Shown one piece after another: positions 40,820-52,211 of a DNA stretch of 64,000 nucleotides (positions within the stretch are counted from its first letter, which is position 1; every line of letters begins with the position of its first letter). The DNA comes from Flammeovirga sp. SJP92. Its GTDB lineage: Bacteria; Bacteroidota; Bacteroidia; Cytophagales; Flammeovirgaceae. A program made the translations under genes and the position numbers. The DNA lies in NCBI RefSeq assembly GCF_001583495.1, contig NZ_LQAQ01000100.1, positions 62,001 to 126,000 on the forward strand. The letters run 5' to 3'. The notes under the pieces were generated by a model. The model saw only the letters and a list, made by a program, of their open reading frames with translations, did no database searches and had not been told where the DNA came from.

Positions 40820-42040
40820 GTGGCAGATATACAGACAGCTGATGAATTAATACGAGAACTTTACAGGCATCGGAAAGTGATCAATCATCTTTTTAAGAAG
40901 AAGAGTGCTTCTTTTGATGAACTCACGGAGATTGCTGATGGTAAGGAAAAGGAAATCTTGCAGGCCAATGCAAGAGGGATTATCTCTTTGCAGGAAGGGG
41001 AACCTGTACGTTTAGACGAACGTCTACTTAATTTTGTAGAGGATTTTCTGGAGATCAATGAGGATATCCGAAATTTTGAGATTGATGAGAGCATCAGAAT
41101 CTTGAAGAAGACGATTTACCTTTATGAAATTGATGAGGATAGCAGGGAGAGAGAGCGTTATTTAAATAGAGTAAAACGAAACCTGAACAGTATTGGGAGG
41201 GTAATTCGTAAGAATGCGGCCACGCTTAGTGCTTTAGTAAAACAAGAATATAAAACGGCATCTTCAATTGAACTCAAAAAAGTGAAAATTGAAGACCACA
41301 ACGAACAAGCTGAAAAGCTTCTACAATTGATTCAAAACGCTGAGGAATTGCTGGAAAATCCATTCTTCAGAGTAGTACAAGACGAAGGACTTCGTACCAT
41401 CGTCAATGAACTAAGAGGAAATCACCTGACCATGGCACGTCATAACTTGATTGCCTTACGTCAGGAAATTGTCCGCTTTATCAATCAGATTGCAGAGCTT
41501 GATCGTCAACATAAAAAGATCTTACAACTCAAGAAATACAGAGATTTGTATGAGTTGGAAGTGCGTACCAATGTGGAGGAAGTCTTCACACATGAAAATG
41601 CTTTGTTCTTCGATACGCAATTACGTTTTCAAACCATGTTGGATTTGGATTACCTAAGAGGTGATGAAGGGTTGGACATTATTGAAAGAGTAGCGATTCG
41701 TCGTCAGCACAAAATGAGAATGCAATTGCAGGCGGAGTTGGATATCGATGGGGATTTATTAGATCCTCAACAGCAGAAAATGTTGCATATCGATTTCAGT
41801 AAGCTGAAAAGAGCGTTCTTCTTACAGGACAAAGACTTATTCCACTTTGTGAAAGAATATGATTATGGATACGAAATGACAGAAGATCAATTGATCAAAA
41901 TTTACTGTCAGGTGGCATTGATTTTTGAAGATGAAATGGATTTTGGATTACCGAAAAACCCATTTGATGATGCCAAACAAATCGAACTCAATGGAAAACA
42001 GTTTGCCTTTATTCGTCCAAAATCAACAGAAAAGAAATAA
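40820..42040 (+). CDS. MksF/JetA-like kleisin-type subunit of an SMC complex
   Basis: 406 residues from GTG at 40820, forced because a TAA lies immediately upstream in frame. The protein is mostly helical: an N-terminal helical bundle, a long central segment and a compact C-terminal region (LKRAFFLQDKDLFHFVKEYDYG). Direct family signatures are hard to see, so the call rests mainly on size, helical make-up and gene order. It is followed by a small MukE-like gene 8 bases downstream and an SMC-type ATPase. In MukBEF, MksBEF and Wadjet systems this position holds the kleisin that links the ATPase heads. Confidence 0.6.
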   Translation: MADIQTADELIRELYRHRKVINHLFKKKSASFDELTEIADGKEKEILQANARGIISLQEGEPVRLDERLLNFVEDFLEINEDIRNFEIDESIRILKKTIYLYEIDEDSRERERYLNRVKRNLNSIGRVIRKNAATLSALVKQEYKTASSIELKKVKIEDHNEQAEKLLQLIQNAEELLENPFFRVVQDEGLRTIVNELRGNHLTMARHNLIALRQEIVRFINQIAELDRQHKKILQLKKYRDLYELEVRTNVEEVFTHENALFFDTQLRFQTMLDLDYLRGDEGLDIIERVAIRRQHKMRMQLQAELDIDGDLLDPQQQKMLHIDFSKLKRAFFLQDKDLFHFVKEYDYGYEMTEDQLIKIYCQVALIFEDEMDFGLPKNPFDDAKQIELNGKQFAFIRPKSTEKK

Positions 42041-42048
42041 CAAACAGC

Positions 42049-42600
42049 ATGAATATAGATCATAATAGTACCCGTCGAGTATTTGAGATGCTCAGTCGAG
42101 GACAATTTTTGAGTGCTAATACCATAAGACCGGAATTCAGAAAACTATACGATGAAGTAGAGGAATATTTTTCTGCATTCGAAAGCGTCTATGCCCCACT
42201 TGGGTTTCACCTAAAGAAAGGAAATAATTACTTCTATTTTTCTCGTGAAGGTGGTCGTCAAACCATTGAAGAGAAAATCGAACGTTTCTATAAATACATT
42301 GATCGATTGGCATTTTTTGCAACCTTCGCTCCTGGATTTGGAGAAGGAATGCGTTTTTATGTCAAAGATATTGTACATAAATGCAATGTTGAAACCGACT
42401 TGAATGATCAGCTTCAACGTTTTGGCTCCGACAAATCGATCTCTACACATGATAAAGTAAGAGACCTTGTAGACGAAATGAAAAGACAGGGTTTTATGGA
42501 GTGTGAGGATGATGAAAACGAAGGTTATATCGTTTTATCTTCTTACAACTACCTGAAAGATATTGTTGATTTAATAGACATTGATCCAACTAACGAATAA
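42049..42600 (+). CDS. MksE/JetB-like small subunit of the SMC complex
   Basis: 183 residues, the size of MksE/JetB (DUF4194-type) proteins, with winged-helix-like segments: FEMLSRGQFLSANT at the start and LVDEMKRQGFMECEDDENEGYIVLSSYNY at the C-terminus (in pieces, a wing-like strand pair). It starts 8 bases after the kleisin-like gene and overlaps the SMC gene by one base (TAATG), so the three are translationally coupled. Family call by position and pattern; no cytoplasmic export signal. Confidence 0.62.
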   Translation: MNIDHNSTRRVFEMLSRGQFLSANTIRPEFRKLYDEVEEYFSAFESVYAPLGFHLKKGNNYFYFSREGGRQTIEEKIERFYKYIDRLAFFATFAPGFGEGMRFYVKDIVHKCNVETDLNDQLQRFGSDKSISTHDKVRDLVDEMKRQGFMECEDDENEGYIVLSSYNYLKDIVDLIDIDPTNE

Positions 42601-45600
42601 TGAATACAAGACAATCACCTAAAAGATATTTAAATAAACTCGTCCTGATTAAAAGTGCGGGTTTTGATTATGCTGAAGTGGATCTTGGAGGAAATGTTCA
42701 CTTTGTGGGATCCAATGGTTTTGGTAAAACAACAGCATTAAGAGCCGTTTTATTCTTTTATCACGCCACTTCTGAAAAAAGGGAGTTGGGGATCAAAGAA
42801 CAGCAAATGTCTTTTTCTGAATATTACTTTCAAGACCTCAATGCACGTCTGATTTATGAAATTCAGACACCAAGAGGAAAGCATTTACTGACAGTGTATA
42901 AATCAGGAGGTCGTTTGAGATTCCGATTTATCGATGCTTCTTACAACAAAGATTTATTTATCAAAGACCGAAAAGCATGTACGCATGATGAGGTTGTTGA
43001 GAACTTAGAAAAAGCAGAAATTCCTTTCTCAGATGAGATCAGAAGGTTTGCGGATTTAAGAAAAGTGATCTATGGTGTAAGCAAATACAATACACAATTC
43101 AGCCTATTAAAACCATCTGCAGGTGTAAAAAGCCATCACGTAGAAGGTATTCCGAAGGCGATTACCAACATCTTTAGAAGTTCTGGCTTAAAGTCAGATT
43201 ACATCAAAAGAGCGATTGGCGAAGCGGCCTCTGCAGATTATGAAATGCAACCTATTTCTCTGGAGACGATTGCCAATTTCATTCATGAGTTTGATGATCA
43301 GTTAACCGACTTTGAAGACTTCGAAAGAAATAAAGGTAATGCTGAGGAAATCGTTTCATTAGAAGCTGAAATCACTCAACAGCAAGATTACCAACAACGC
43401 CTCGCCAAGCAGATTGGTGGTGGAGTTGCTTTAGCAGAAAAACACTTAGCCGACAGTGAAAAACTCTTAGCAGAAATGCAGAAAGAGGAAAATGAAATGA
43501 AGGCGAAGTACGAGAAAGCAGAAACCAACTATCAAGAGAAAACGGCTGAAGTCAATCAAGAATTAGGGGAGATTAAAGCGACCTTAAAGGAGATTGAAAG
43601 AAGAGAAAAGGAATATGAATCCATCAATATCGGTGGGGAAACATTCTCAATTGAGCAGGTTGTAGACTTGGTAGCGGAAGAACCACGTTTGAAAGATCAG
43701 TTGATTTATCAGCAGGAGATCAAGCAAATGTTGGTGGCGAAAACTGCTGAAGTGGAACGTTTGATTTCTGATCAAAAAGCGTCACTAGAGCAGAAGTTTA
43801 CCTCAAGAAAAGGGGAGTTCAATGAGCAGAAGCAATTACTCAAAGAGCAATTACACCTTCAGAAAGAAAAACTTCAAAGCGAAAAACAGGAGAAGTTAGA
43901 GGAAGTAAGAACCAAGTTCTTTACGCAGGAAGGAGAATACAGAACAGAATTAGATCAACTAAAAGAAGCGAAAACGAGAGCGGATGTTGCTTTGGAAATG
44001 GAGCAAGACAAAGATTTCGCAAAGAACCTTTTAGTAGAAAATAATACCCTGAGATTTAAACTTTCATCTTCTATCAAAGAAAATAAACACACTTTGGTAG
44101 AGACAGAAAACACGATTAAAAACACCAAAGAACGTAAGCGATTAGAAGAGCAGATTATCCGTAATGAAGCGAGAAATCAGCAAATCGAATTGGAACGTCA
44201 GGTGAAGATCGCTTCTGATGAGGTGGAAGAATGGAAAGTTCGTCAAGAGAACTATGAAGGTACATTCCGTGAATTCTTAGATCAAAATAAATCAGATTGG
44301 GCTGAAAATATCGGTAAAGTTTGTGATGAAGAATTGCTTTCTAGAAAAGATTTAGAACCTTCACTTTTAGAAGGGGAATCTTTCTATGGAGTGAAATTGG
44401 ACATCGCTTCACTGACTTCAAAAGTGACGGCTACTGATCATATTTCATCAACTTATGAAGCTAAAAAAGAAGCATTGGCGAAAGCTGAAAGTGATTTAGC
44501 GGAATTGGATGAAGTGATTGATAAGAAAGTTGAAAAGCTATTAGGAAACTATAGCAAGAAACTCGCAAAGCTGGAGCAAACGCTTTCAGACCTTTCTTCA
44601 GAAATTGTCAATCAGGAAAAAGAACTAAAAGAAGCAAGAGAGCAGGAAGCCTCAATCATCGAAAAAGGAAACACTCTGAAAGAGGAAGCCTTGGTAGATT
44701 TGAGAAGAAAGCTGAGAATTGCTCAAGAATCTTGTGATACTTTAGAAGGAAAACTAGCGGACTTAAAAGATGACCGTTGGGCACAAGAACGTGAGATTTC
44801 TGATATTTTCAACTCTAAAATCAATGCTTTAAAAGAAGAGATTGATGGAAAGCTAGCGAAGTTAGAGAAAGAATGGTCGGCATATCAAGGAGATCACGAT
44901 AAACGTATTACTGCACTTGAAGAAGAGCGTAAAGGTTTATTGGAGGAAAAAGGTATTGATACCGATAAGTTAGCAGAGGTTGAGGAAGAAATTACAATTC
45001 TAAATCACAAACTGAAACAGGTTGAGGAAGCTCAAATTGTAAAAAGAGGGTACGAAAAAGACAAAACGTACTATTTGGACAAAGCAGAGGAGACAAGAAG
45101 TAGAAAGAAATTCCAAGATCGAGAGCTAGAAAAACTTAAAGAAGAATACGACAAAGCAGTTGAGGAATACGAAGAACAACTCAACTACTTGGATGATAAA
45201 AGAGATGCTTACCGCAGAACGAAAGATCATTCCAATCATCTTTTAAAACAATTCAAAGCGGCAAGAGAAGAAGACGAACAAGCCTACGAACGTCTTCAAA
45301 AATACTTTGATGAAGGTGTTGAAAACCTCAATGAAGCAGAAATCAACGACAGCGATTTATCTTTCTTATTGACAGAACTAAGAAAGTCATTAAAAGAAAA
45401 AGCACGTTTGGTTTCTACCTTTAAATCAAAAGGACAAATCTTTACAGGTGTCTTCAGAAGAGACAATCATTTGAAGATTCCAGCACTTTTCGCTCAATCG
45501 ACTTTGCAAGAATTTATTTACTTGGCGAAGAAAGTCCTTCCGAGTTTATTGGATGGAGAGCGATTGTCACACATGAGGGATCAATTAGAGAAACAGCATA

Positions 45601-46319
45601 GAGAAATCATTAGTGCTGTTGCTCGTCAAGTGAAAGACCTTTCGGATACTTCAGATTTGATTAAGAAGATTGTCAAAGACATCAATAATGGGTTTGCGAA
45701 AAGTAACTTCGTGGGTGTAGTGAAGTCCATCGAATTGGAATACAATGAGAACAATACGCCATTGTTGACCACTTTAAAGAAAATCTACAAGCTCAATGAG
45801 AATGTATCATTCTCAGATCAAGGCGATATCTTTAAGGTCAATGTCAACTCTTCAGCAAAAGATTCTCGTTATTCAGTTCAGTTGTTGAAAGACCTTCGTA
45901 GAGTAATTAAAGAAAACGCTCAAAAGCAGATCACATTGGAAGATACTTTTATGTTACGCTTTAGGGTCATCGAAAATAATAACGATACAGGTTGGGTAGA
46001 GAAGTTGTCTAATGTAGGTTCGGAAGGTACGGACGTGTTGGTGAAGTCGATGATTTACATTACGCTCTTGACTGTATTCCAAGAGAACGCTTACAAAGAA
46101 CAAGAGGATTACTTCGTACACTGCGTGATTGATGAGGTGGGTAAATTATCAGATCGTTACCTAAGAGATCTGATCCATTATACCAACTCCAAAAATATCC
46201 GCTTGATCTTCGGTTCACCAAACGAAAATGATCCATCGATTTACGATCACGTATTGAAATTGGAAAGAAATTCTAAGACAAATAAAGCAAGCGTTGTGAA
46301 GCTTGTGAGTGAGATATAG
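42600..46319 (+). CDS. MksB/JetC/MukB-like SMC-type ATPase
   Basis: 1239 residues. Walker A GSNGFGKTTA is at residues 37-46 after an N-terminal strand typical of SMC/Rad50 heads. A Glu/Lys-rich coiled coil fills roughly 240-1010, broken by a short non-coiled hinge-like segment. The C-terminal head has Walker B HCVIDEVGKL, with catalytic Asp1178-Glu1179, and a preceding signature-like segment SNVGSEGTD (1137-1145) rather than the usual LSGGE. It would form ATP-driven loops with the two upstream proteins, as MukBEF or Wadjet do. No JetD nuclease gene follows. A terminator lies right after the stop codon. Confidence 0.78.
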   Translation: MNTRQSPKRYLNKLVLIKSAGFDYAEVDLGGNVHFVGSNGFGKTTALRAVLFFYHATSEKRELGIKEQQMSFSEYYFQDLNARLIYEIQTPRGKHLLTVYKSGGRLRFRFIDASYNKDLFIKDRKACTHDEVVENLEKAEIPFSDEIRRFADLRKVIYGVSKYNTQFSLLKPSAGVKSHHVEGIPKAITNIFRSSGLKSDYIKRAIGEAASADYEMQPISLETIANFIHEFDDQLTDFEDFERNKGNAEEIVSLEAEITQQQDYQQRLAKQIGGGVALAEKHLADSEKLLAEMQKEENEMKAKYEKAETNYQEKTAEVNQELGEIKATLKEIERREKEYESINIGGETFSIEQVVDLVAEEPRLKDQLIYQQEIKQMLVAKTAEVERLISDQKASLEQKFTSRKGEFNEQKQLLKEQLHLQKEKLQSEKQEKLEEVRTKFFTQEGEYRTELDQLKEAKTRADVALEMEQDKDFAKNLLVENNTLRFKLSSSIKENKHTLVETENTIKNTKERKRLEEQIIRNEARNQQIELERQVKIASDEVEEWKVRQENYEGTFREFLDQNKSDWAENIGKVCDEELLSRKDLEPSLLEGESFYGVKLDIASLTSKVTATDHISSTYEAKKEALAKAESDLAELDEVIDKKVEKLLGNYSKKLAKLEQTLSDLSSEIVNQEKELKEAREQEASIIEKGNTLKEEALVDLRRKLRIAQESCDTLEGKLADLKDDRWAQEREISDIFNSKINALKEEIDGKLAKLEKEWSAYQGDHDKRITALEEERKGLLEEKGIDTDKLAEVEEEITILNHKLKQVEEAQIVKRGYEKDKTYYLDKAEETRSRKKFQDRELEKLKEEYDKAVEEYEEQLNYLDDKRDAYRRTKDHSNHLLKQFKAAREEDEQAYERLQKYFDEGVENLNEAEINDSDLSFLLTELRKSLKEKARLVSTFKSKGQIFTGVFRRDNHLKIPALFAQSTLQEFIYLAKKVLPSLLDGERLSHMRDQLEKQHREIISAVARQVKDLSDTSDLIKKIVKDINNGFAKSNFVGVVKSIELEYNENNTPLLTTLKKIYKLNENVSFSDQGDIFKVNVNSSAKDSRYSVQLLKDLRRVIKENAQKQITLEDTFMLRFRVIENNNDTGWVEKLSNVGSEGTDVLVKSMIYITLLTVFQENAYKEQEDYFVHCVIDEVGKLSDRYLRDLIHYTNSKNIRLIFGSPNENDPSIYDHVLKLERNSKTNKASVVKLVSEI

Positions 46320-46321
46320 AG

Positions 46322-46357
46322 AAAAGCCTCTTGCTGATACAGTGAGAGGCTTTTTTG
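46322..46357 (+). terminator. Terminator of the SMC operon
   Basis: AAAGCCTCT pairs with AGAGGCTTT across a 13-base loop and is followed by T, closing the operon after three genes. Confidence 0.85.
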
Positions 46358-51014: not shown

Positions 51015-52211
51015 CTACTTATATTTCAATATTGGAGCCCCTATTTTTACCTCTTTATTGATAGTTAAGGCTTTAATTACACCCTCACGTTCAGCCACAA
51101 TCTCAAAAGTAGCTTTATCAGATTCAACTTCTACCAAAACATCATTAATATTGATATGGTCACCTTCCTTTACATGCCATTTTGTGATAGTGACTTTGTC
51201 GATATCAGGACTTAATGCAGGAATACGAACAAGATCTTCTTCATTCTCTTTTTTACGATTAGGATTATAGATAACCATAATGATATCATTGACCAAAACT
51301 TCTTTCTTGGGATTTAGATAAATGACTTCACCAGCTTCATAATTTTCTAATTCTATTGTCGCTTTGTCGGTTTCCACGTCAGCAATGATGTCTCCCACTT
51401 TCACAATGTCACCAAGTTTCACATGCCATTTAGAAATAATGGCTGATTTCATATCATCCATCATTTTTGGCATTCTAACCGCCTCACTGTCTTCAGGAAT
51501 CTCCACTTCAGTCATTTCTAAGCTCTCAGGAGCTACTATATCTTTAGCAACCTTTTTGTCTGATTGATTATTTTTAAAACCTGTTACAGTCAAAATAATT
51601 TCATTTACCAATAATTCCTTTTTAGGATTTATATATGTAACTACTCCATCATCATAACTTTCTAGTTCCATAACGGCTTTTTCCGTTTCAACCTCAGCTA
51701 GAATATCACCAGCTTTAATTGTCTTACCAACTTCTGTGAAGACATGAATGATACGAGCCATTTTCATATTCTCATGCATTATGGGCAGTCTTACAGCTTC
51801 GCTTCCTTCAGGAATCTCCACTTCGGTTATTTCAAGGTCTTTGTATTCAAAAGTCTTTTTTAGGGTTGGGTTTTTAGATTTTATAATCATGATAACATCA
51901 TTGACCAAAACTTCTTTCTTGGGATTTAGATAAGTGACTTCACCAGCTTCATAATTTTCTAATTCCATTGTCGCTTTGTCGGTTTCCACGTCAGCAAGGA
52001 TGTCTCCCACTTTCACAATGTCACCAAGTTTCACATGCCATTTCGAAATAACGCCTGATTTCATATCATCCATCATCTTTGGCATTCTAACCGCCTCACT
52101 GTCTTCAGGAATCTCCACTTCAGTCATTTGAAGGTTTTGCCCTATAGGTTTTATGCTAGGTGTAGTTTCTTTAGAAGAAGAACTAAAGAATTGAAGTAGT
52201 TTGCTTAACAT
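51015..52211 (-). CDS. Stand-alone tetra-lipoyl-domain protein
   Basis: 398 residues that contain four biotinyl/lipoyl-attachment domains and nothing else recognisable. Each has the E2-type lysine turn: Lys79 (VETDKAT), Lys178 (VETEKAV), Lys283 (VETDKAT) and Lys366 (VESDKAT). The ordinary E2 parts, a peripheral-subunit-binding domain and the acyltransferase core with its HxxxD motif, are absent. Linkers contain TEVEIPEDSEAVRMPKM. It could be a lipoate-bearing carrier for a 2-oxoacid dehydrogenase complex, or a lipoate reservoir. No lipoate ligase or dehydrogenase gene is nearby. Domains 1 and 3 are almost identical in DNA. There is no signal peptide, so it is cytoplasmic. Confidence 0.85.
   Translation of the reverse strand: MLSKLLQFFSSSSKETTPSIKPIGQNLQMTEVEIPEDSEAVRMPKMMDDMKSGVISKWHVKLGDIVKVGDILADVETDKATMELENYEAGEVTYLNPKKEVLVNDVIMIIKSKNPTLKKTFEYKDLEITEVEIPEGSEAVRLPIMHENMKMARIIHVFTEVGKTIKAGDILAEVETEKAVMELESYDDGVVTYINPKKELLVNEIILTVTGFKNNQSDKKVAKDIVAPESLEMTEVEIPEDSEAVRMPKMMDDMKSAIISKWHVKLGDIVKVGDIIADVETDKATIELENYEAGEVIYLNPKKEVLVNDIIMVIYNPNRKKENEEDLVRIPALSPDIDKVTITKWHVKEGDHININDVLVEVESDKATFEIVAEREGVIKALTINKEVKIGAPILKYK

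Follow-up and report, generated by a model that had tools for sequence, protein, structure and literature searches.

The MksBEF complex of Pseudomonas aeruginosa is described as a three-subunit, MukBEF-like complex that is present beside Smc-ScpAB and takes part in chromosome organisation and segregation (PMC7485682). It has also been described as a form that lost JetD (PMC10586767). The SMC cores of Wadjet are reported to recognise circular DNA (PMC10586767). According to another account, mks genes often accompany other SMC complexes, and smc is usually found apart from its partner genes (PMC4255302).

Here, a three-gene mks operon of Flammeovirga sp. SJP92, termed operon I, is compared with these systems. 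The DNA stretch analysed, referred to as the window, is 64,000 bp long and lies within contig C100 of an 8.49 Mb assembly in 123 contigs. As in P. aeruginosa, a three-subunit SMC complex is encoded that coexists with Smc-ScpAB, a likeness drawn from the description and not from sequence comparison; the Flammeovirga genome differs in that it also holds a nuclease-bearing paralogue, operon II. The three-gene, nuclease-free MksBEF is already known from P. aeruginosa, and the Flammeovirga operon is a further member. Kleisin, KITE and SMC subunits are common to MksBEFG/Wadjet (JetABCD) and to both operons; operon II adds a JetD/MksG-like fourth gene, whereas operon I is without one and is matched weakly by the PADLOC Jet models. 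Smc-ScpAB is another bacterial condensin, found in the same genome, but it belongs to a different SMC family with its own kleisin, and MksB, MksE and MksF come in addition to it. No paper on operon I was found in the open-licence literature on Flammeovirga condensins, Bacteroidetes MksB or DUF7281.

Operon I and its predicted proteins

Operon I consists of three coupled genes on the forward strand, in the order mksF-mksE-mksB, with gaps of +8 and -1 bp. The first open reading frame, mksF (40820-42040), has a GTG start and encodes a predicted kleisin subunit of 406 amino acids, recognised by its homology to related operons. The second, mksE (42049-42600), encodes a KITE (tandem winged-helix) subunit of 183 amino acids that matches Pfam MksE (PF21980; 121.7 bits, cut-off 27, E 5e-35). 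The third, mksB (42600-46319), encodes an SMC-type coiled-coil ATPase of 1239 amino acids, residues 25-1210 of which match PF12128/DUF3584 (188.8 bits, cut-off 31, E 1.5e-55). The original prediction had given the same three reading frames, sizes and gaps, and all are present; in the profile searches that it proposed, both MksE and MksB score over the cut-off.

MksB displays a Walker A motif, GSNGFGKTT, at residues 37-45 (42708-42734, forward strand), where it had been predicted to start. An ABC signature, SNVGSEGT, is present at residues 1137-1144 (46008-46031, forward strand), and a Walker B motif, VIDEVG, at residues 1176-1181 (46125-46142, forward strand), with the core VIDE at 1176-1179. 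These motifs are intact, and they are aligned in relatives. MksB is thus a predicted SMC-type ATPase in which Walker A on one side and the signature and Walker B on the other flank a predicted long coiled coil. The terminator proposed to close the operon is real: an intrinsic terminator hairpin at 46320-46356 on the forward strand folds with -24.3 kcal/mol and a z-score of -6.53, although, unlike the fold calculation, the pattern-scanner listing does not include it.

The system had been called either MksF/MksE/MksB- or JetABC-like. Profiles, gene order and motifs uphold the MksBEF type. JetABC is the less apt name, because the PADLOC Wadjet models match operon I weakly (best JetB E 5.5e-4, JetC E 5.8e-3) and JetA has no PADLOC match there.

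The 406-amino-acid protein has no Pfam match above cut-off, and 18 relatives scanned against Pfam show no consistent family. It is called MksF because it can be aligned with the product of the first gene of related operons, with 13-41% identity outside the genus; identity is 87% to two other Flammeovirga. Its assignment as the MksF kleisin is a prediction resting on synteny and sister-operon homology. The AlphaFold model is of low confidence (pLDDT 58). In a Foldseek search with this model, the first rank is held by a 440-residue MukBEF chain (E 0.029), which is taken to be MukF because its length equals that of E. coli MukF (440 amino acids). The seventh rank is a chain of a MukE-MukF complex (E 0.10); unrelated helical bundles also rank, and no match reaches E≤0.001. 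Operon I has the gene order F-E-B in common with E. coli MukBEF, but profile comparison gives a probability of 0.1% with E. coli MukF and 1.4% with MukE. PDB sequence and profile searches have no Muk, Mks or Jet chain among the matches listed. The structure model of MksE (pLDDT 44) is unusable.

The nuclease gene and operon II

The six frames of the whole window were searched with a profile built from 13 MksG-like proteins, and there is no match at E≤1. The same profile recovers the gene in seven of seven positive-control loci. Three of these (L147, L148, L149) lie outside the profile and are found at E values of 2e-68 to 7e-84; it is therefore sensitive to relatives that it had not included. 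The claim that the window holds no JetD-like gene stands. A remnant of the nuclease was likewise sought by six-frame profile search (E≤1), and there is none in the window nor in 20 other nuclease-free loci. Operon I is without the in-operon JetD/MksG nuclease by which Wadjet and MksBEFG are recognised.

The Pfam model PF09983 has no match in the genome, but reading this as genome-wide absence of JetD is misleading, as the operon II protein scores 19.7 bits, under the cut-off of 22. A blank result with PF23947 in Flammeovirga genome G007 is also misleading, as its operon II gene is found with our own nuclease alignment. Statements of absence therefore rest on our own alignment and profile searches. 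With the nuclease profile against the PDB, the sole match listed is MMS21, which is non-significant (E 1.1).

Operon II is a second mksFEB operon, unlinked to operon I (contig C12 of the same genome, locus L067, 4696-10964). It has mksF (403 amino acids), mksE (196 amino acids) and mksB (1214 amino acids), followed by a JetD/MksG-like gene encoding 285 amino acids. The MksB proteins of the two operons are 29% identical. The fourth protein matches DUF7281 (PF23947) over the cut-off (E 2.5e-9), JetD_C under the cut-off (E 5.7e-4) and the PADLOC JetD models at E 2.7e-6. Residues E153, D203 and D205 are invariant in 13 aligned JetD/MksG-like proteins, a pattern that we take to be TOPRIM-like. Two Pseudomonas relatives of the nuclease have a strong DUF7281 match, with the Top6A/Spo11 TOPRIM model just under its cut-off. 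In operon II the fourth gene is of the JetD/MksG kind and its product shows a TOPRIM-like motif; the operon is likely a plasmid-defence system. The genome search proposed at the outset does find an MksG/JetD-like gene, of the DUF7281 type, on contig C12. A nuclease-like gene is thus encoded elsewhere, but its recruitment by operon I, as had been suggested, is unneeded: the gene sits in its own complete mksFEB-G operon, and five of nine Flammeovirga have operon I with no match to the nuclease family.

The mksB gene of operon I is found in all nine Flammeovirga genomes, that of the window included, with 78-100% identity. It is adjoined by mksF and mksE, and all three genes are open in the nine genomes. 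Nor do homologous operons always carry JetD, as related operons without a nuclease exist. The operon II nuclease (282-285 amino acids) is present in three of the nine (G000, the genome of the window, G003 and G007). Five others (G001, G002, G005, G006, G008) have operon I and are blank in a whole-genome search with the nuclease alignment. In the ninth, G004, operon II is represented by mksF, mksE and the start of mksB alone, which lie where two contigs end; its genome yields neither the remainder of mksB nor the nuclease. Its contigs C27 and C103 (L074, L075) both end inside the start of operon II mksB. The truncated operon may represent an assembly gap or a broken duplicate.

ScpA and the Smc hinge are each found in all nine Flammeovirga genomes. 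In the genomes taken as L12M1, YS10 and NBRC 100898 (G001, G006, G008), operon I is on the contig taken as chromosome I (PMC8653839). Genes flanking operon I recur in groups of strains. Downstream of mksB there is a sensor-like gene in the same direction in four strains and an opposite-direction gene, of several kinds, in five; no conserved fourth gene follows operon I across the nine. Elsewhere in the window, 51015-52211 on the reverse strand encodes a protein of 398 amino acids which, as read by eye, strings together repeated lipoyl/biotinyl-like domains and has no catalytic one. The F. aprica counterpart (L020) has 194 amino acids.

Relatives, gene arrangement and phylogeny

A DUF3584 match at E≤0.001 is found in 37 of 390 genomes of the order and exceeds the cut-off in 29, which leaves 361 without a match over cut-off. 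Loci were taken from these 29 and from the weaker G555; G239 came in through an MksE search. Two were left out of the trees, G575 because its mksB is in two open reading frames and G527 because it is a fragment at a contig end. Open reading frames of relatives were labelled with our own profiles. In G575 it is the nuclease-free operon (L120) whose mksB is split; the gene is intact in three others of the same genus (g231).

As the loci were checked for a nuclease beside mksB, a whole-genome search serves as a check against scattered nucleases. With the 13-row nuclease alignment as the query, nine of 26 genomes have a strong match. All nine are rows of the alignment, so what the search shows is that it picks up no further copy of that kind. 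Among the 17 without a strong match, G004 has a stop-riddled match (E 0.029) that is treated as noise, and in G461, whose contig stops 238 bases past mksB, absence of the nuclease is that of the whole-genome search alone.

Three-gene and four-gene forms are found in other organisms too. In Persicobacter psychrovividus, plasmid pPP3 carries a three-gene operon and pPP6 one of four genes, and Persicobacter sp. JZB09 has such a pair, also on two plasmids. The Persicobacter operons closest to operon I are on secondary replicons of 380 kb and 859 kb. The three-gene form is also present in Parabacteroides distasonis, and Phocaeicola massiliensis has two operons of the four-gene form.

In five relatives from four genera, either mksF or the whole set of mks genes is unlinked (loci L138, L139, L140, L141, L142, L154, L155, L156). 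G012 and G476 have mksF far away from mksEB, whereas the three genes are all separate from one another in G013, in G448 and in the nuclease-free set of G495, G448 and G495 being of the same genus. Such scattering resembles the separation of smc from its partners. Some of the scattered genes sit tightly beside housekeeping-like ones: a riboflavin-synthase-like gene precedes mksF in G012, and an aspartokinase-like gene precedes mksE in G495 and G448 (names read by eye from the sequence). In all 21 nuclease-bearing loci the genes are together: 15 in the order F-E-B-G, four in B-G-F-E (L086, L122, L123, L124) and two in B-E-F-G (L152, L153), although most F and E genes of these last six are named by place and size alone. 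Over 27 systems, the pairwise distances of the B, F and E proteins are correlated with r 0.94-0.97, although a correlation of this kind is to some extent expected from common descent by itself.

In a wider sample of the phylum, an MksE match is found in 60 of 395 genomes, of which seven belong to a different order within the same class. One family (f37), mostly of small genomes, accounts for 44 of the 60. Its loci L095 and L097 contain a different four-gene system (482, 210-211, 1150-1171 and 399-403 amino acids). A Smc hinge match is absent from 13 of 24 genomes searched (G402, G630 and several Bacteroidia), and an ScpA match from two of 22 (G402 and G630). These gaps accord with a report in which no condensin was recognised in two Bacteroidetes (PMC10197239). 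The idea that nuclease-free MksBEF is the missing condensin of Bacteroides is generally unsupported, given that MksE is found in 60 of 395 genomes and that the closest relative of G402 has a nuclease-like gene. Two Bacteroidales "plasmids" of PLSDB, NZ_OY725754 and NZ_OY725907 (L146, L150), contain genes of chromosome type (in L146 these are rplU, rpmA and gcvT), so that both resemble pieces of a chromosome.

A tree of 37 MksB sequences, rooted at the midpoint, requires three changes in the nuclease label, and its starred branches force three. The window belongs to a nuclease-free clade of 11 rows (support 98/100), a second such clade has five rows (100/100), and two further nuclease-free rows, G402 and Parabacteroides, are nested in a nuclease-bearing clade. 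A single loss that places all 18 nuclease-free rows in one clade is rejected (p-AU 4.28e-6), with the proviso that the test presumes a group named beforehand and that this grouping was chosen after the tree was seen. Without G402 and Parabacteroides, the 16 main rows are set apart from the rest by a single, weakly supported branch of the best tree (63/55), and they may form one clade. In the first MksB tree, of 36 rows, the second nuclease-free clade grouped with the nuclease-bearing clade (94/92), and in the second, of 37, its placement is an unresolved fork. The second tree omits eight rows of the first, namely seven near-copies and the long-branched G555, and has nine new ones.

The seven outgroup rows all have a nuclease-like gene. 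Loss is the simpler direction for this reason: the nuclease-free form probably goes back to a four-gene ancestor of the MksBEFG/Wadjet-like type whose nuclease gene was lost, a gain being the less likely course under the midpoint root. The label of Pseudomonas sp. FeN3W (L152) comes from DUF7281 over the cut-off (E 7.6e-24). The fourth genes of L082, L083, L086, L122, L123, L124, L147 and L148 are under the Pfam cut-offs and owe their labels to our own profiles, L082 being a seed of the first profile.

Proposed function of the nuclease-free complex

Operon I probably encodes a complete nuclease-free MksBEF system, descended from a four-gene ancestor, that acts together with Smc-ScpAB on the large replicons of its own cell and leaves DNA uncut. 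In such a complex, an MksB dimer with its ATPase heads would be bridged by the kleisin MksF carrying MksE. The complex would load on the large replicons, in Flammeovirga two chromosomes, and extrude loops, working alongside Smc-ScpAB with no DNA cleavage. It would be one of two paralogous Mks systems, with plasmid defence taken by operon II, and would have originated through loss of the nuclease gene. For operon I, the genes, their motifs, the lack of a nuclease of this family, the phylogeny and the distribution are observed, whereas complex formation, loop extrusion, the chromosome role and the direction of change are inferred.

Of the functions proposed, chromosome organisation is the most likely. 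It is favoured indirectly, because the operon is genus-wide, persists where there is no nuclease match and coexists with Smc-ScpAB, and because the genes are scattered among housekeeping-like genes in some relatives. Several observations count against it. Operon I is compact in Flammeovirga, as defence cassettes are, and the closest Persicobacter operons are on secondary replicons. Since G402 and Parabacteroides lie inside a nuclease-bearing clade, an operon without the nuclease does not have to be one with a long-standing housekeeping role. A nuclease of a different family may also exist. In the order as a whole the complex is dispensable, given the 361 genomes in which DUF3584 does not exceed its cut-off.

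Operon I might instead be a plasmid defence that has no nuclease, binding or compacting circular extrachromosomal DNA and so silencing or sequestering it. Recognition of circular DNA by Wadjet SMC cores (PMC10586767) and the JetD-like gene of the paralogue in the same genome fit this proposal. It is unlikely, however, as plasmids of roughly 0.06 and 0.05 Mb are reported from Flammeovirga L12M1 and YS10 (PMC8653839), and the genomes taken as these strains have operon I and no nuclease match. Presence in all genus genomes examined and scattering in relatives are also unlike a portable cassette.

Defence with a nuclease supplied in trans, for example by the MksG-like protein of operon II, has been considered as well, as such a protein is encoded along with operon I in G000, G003 and G007. 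Against this, F, E and B subunits of its own are encoded in operon II, the MksB proteins of the two operons have diverged to the low identity given above, and the five Flammeovirga genomes with a blank nuclease search nevertheless have operon I. The proposal is improbable.

That operon I is merely what is left of a decaying Wadjet-like system after nuclease loss has next to no probability and is largely refuted by the selection test: relatives and outgroup rows with a nuclease do exist, but the three genes are open in nine genomes, the ATPase motifs are intact, and dN/dS is 0.012-0.052 in nine of nine gene comparisons (three strain pairs, a small sample). For operon II, dN/dS is 0.018-0.081 for F, E and B, again in a small sample; for its nuclease it is 0.137 in one pair, the other pair being saturated.

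Chromosome organisation by a nuclease-free MksBEF thus remains the preferred reading. A broader and more tentative proposal, to which we give somewhat less than an even chance, is that a Cytophagales Wadjet-like system became a resident condensin through nuclease loss, perhaps one suited to several large replicons. With the same reserve, it might have become genus-wide, and its genes could then scatter among housekeeping genes yet co-evolve. Equally tentatively, this resident condensin would now coexist with a nuclease-bearing sister in the same cell, in Flammeovirga, Persicobacter and G495.

How SMC complexes that are identical or close kin can safeguard the chromosome in one context yet act against extrachromosomal DNA in a different one has been posed as an open question (PMC10586767). 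Some Flammeovirga have both Mks forms in one cell, operon I being in every genome examined and operon II accessory; the two roles could therefore be compared in a single marine, polysaccharide-degrading host. As a kind, operon I is ordinary, but it is useful because in this strain its nuclease-bearing sister shares the cell. The pair of operons provides a useful natural comparison.
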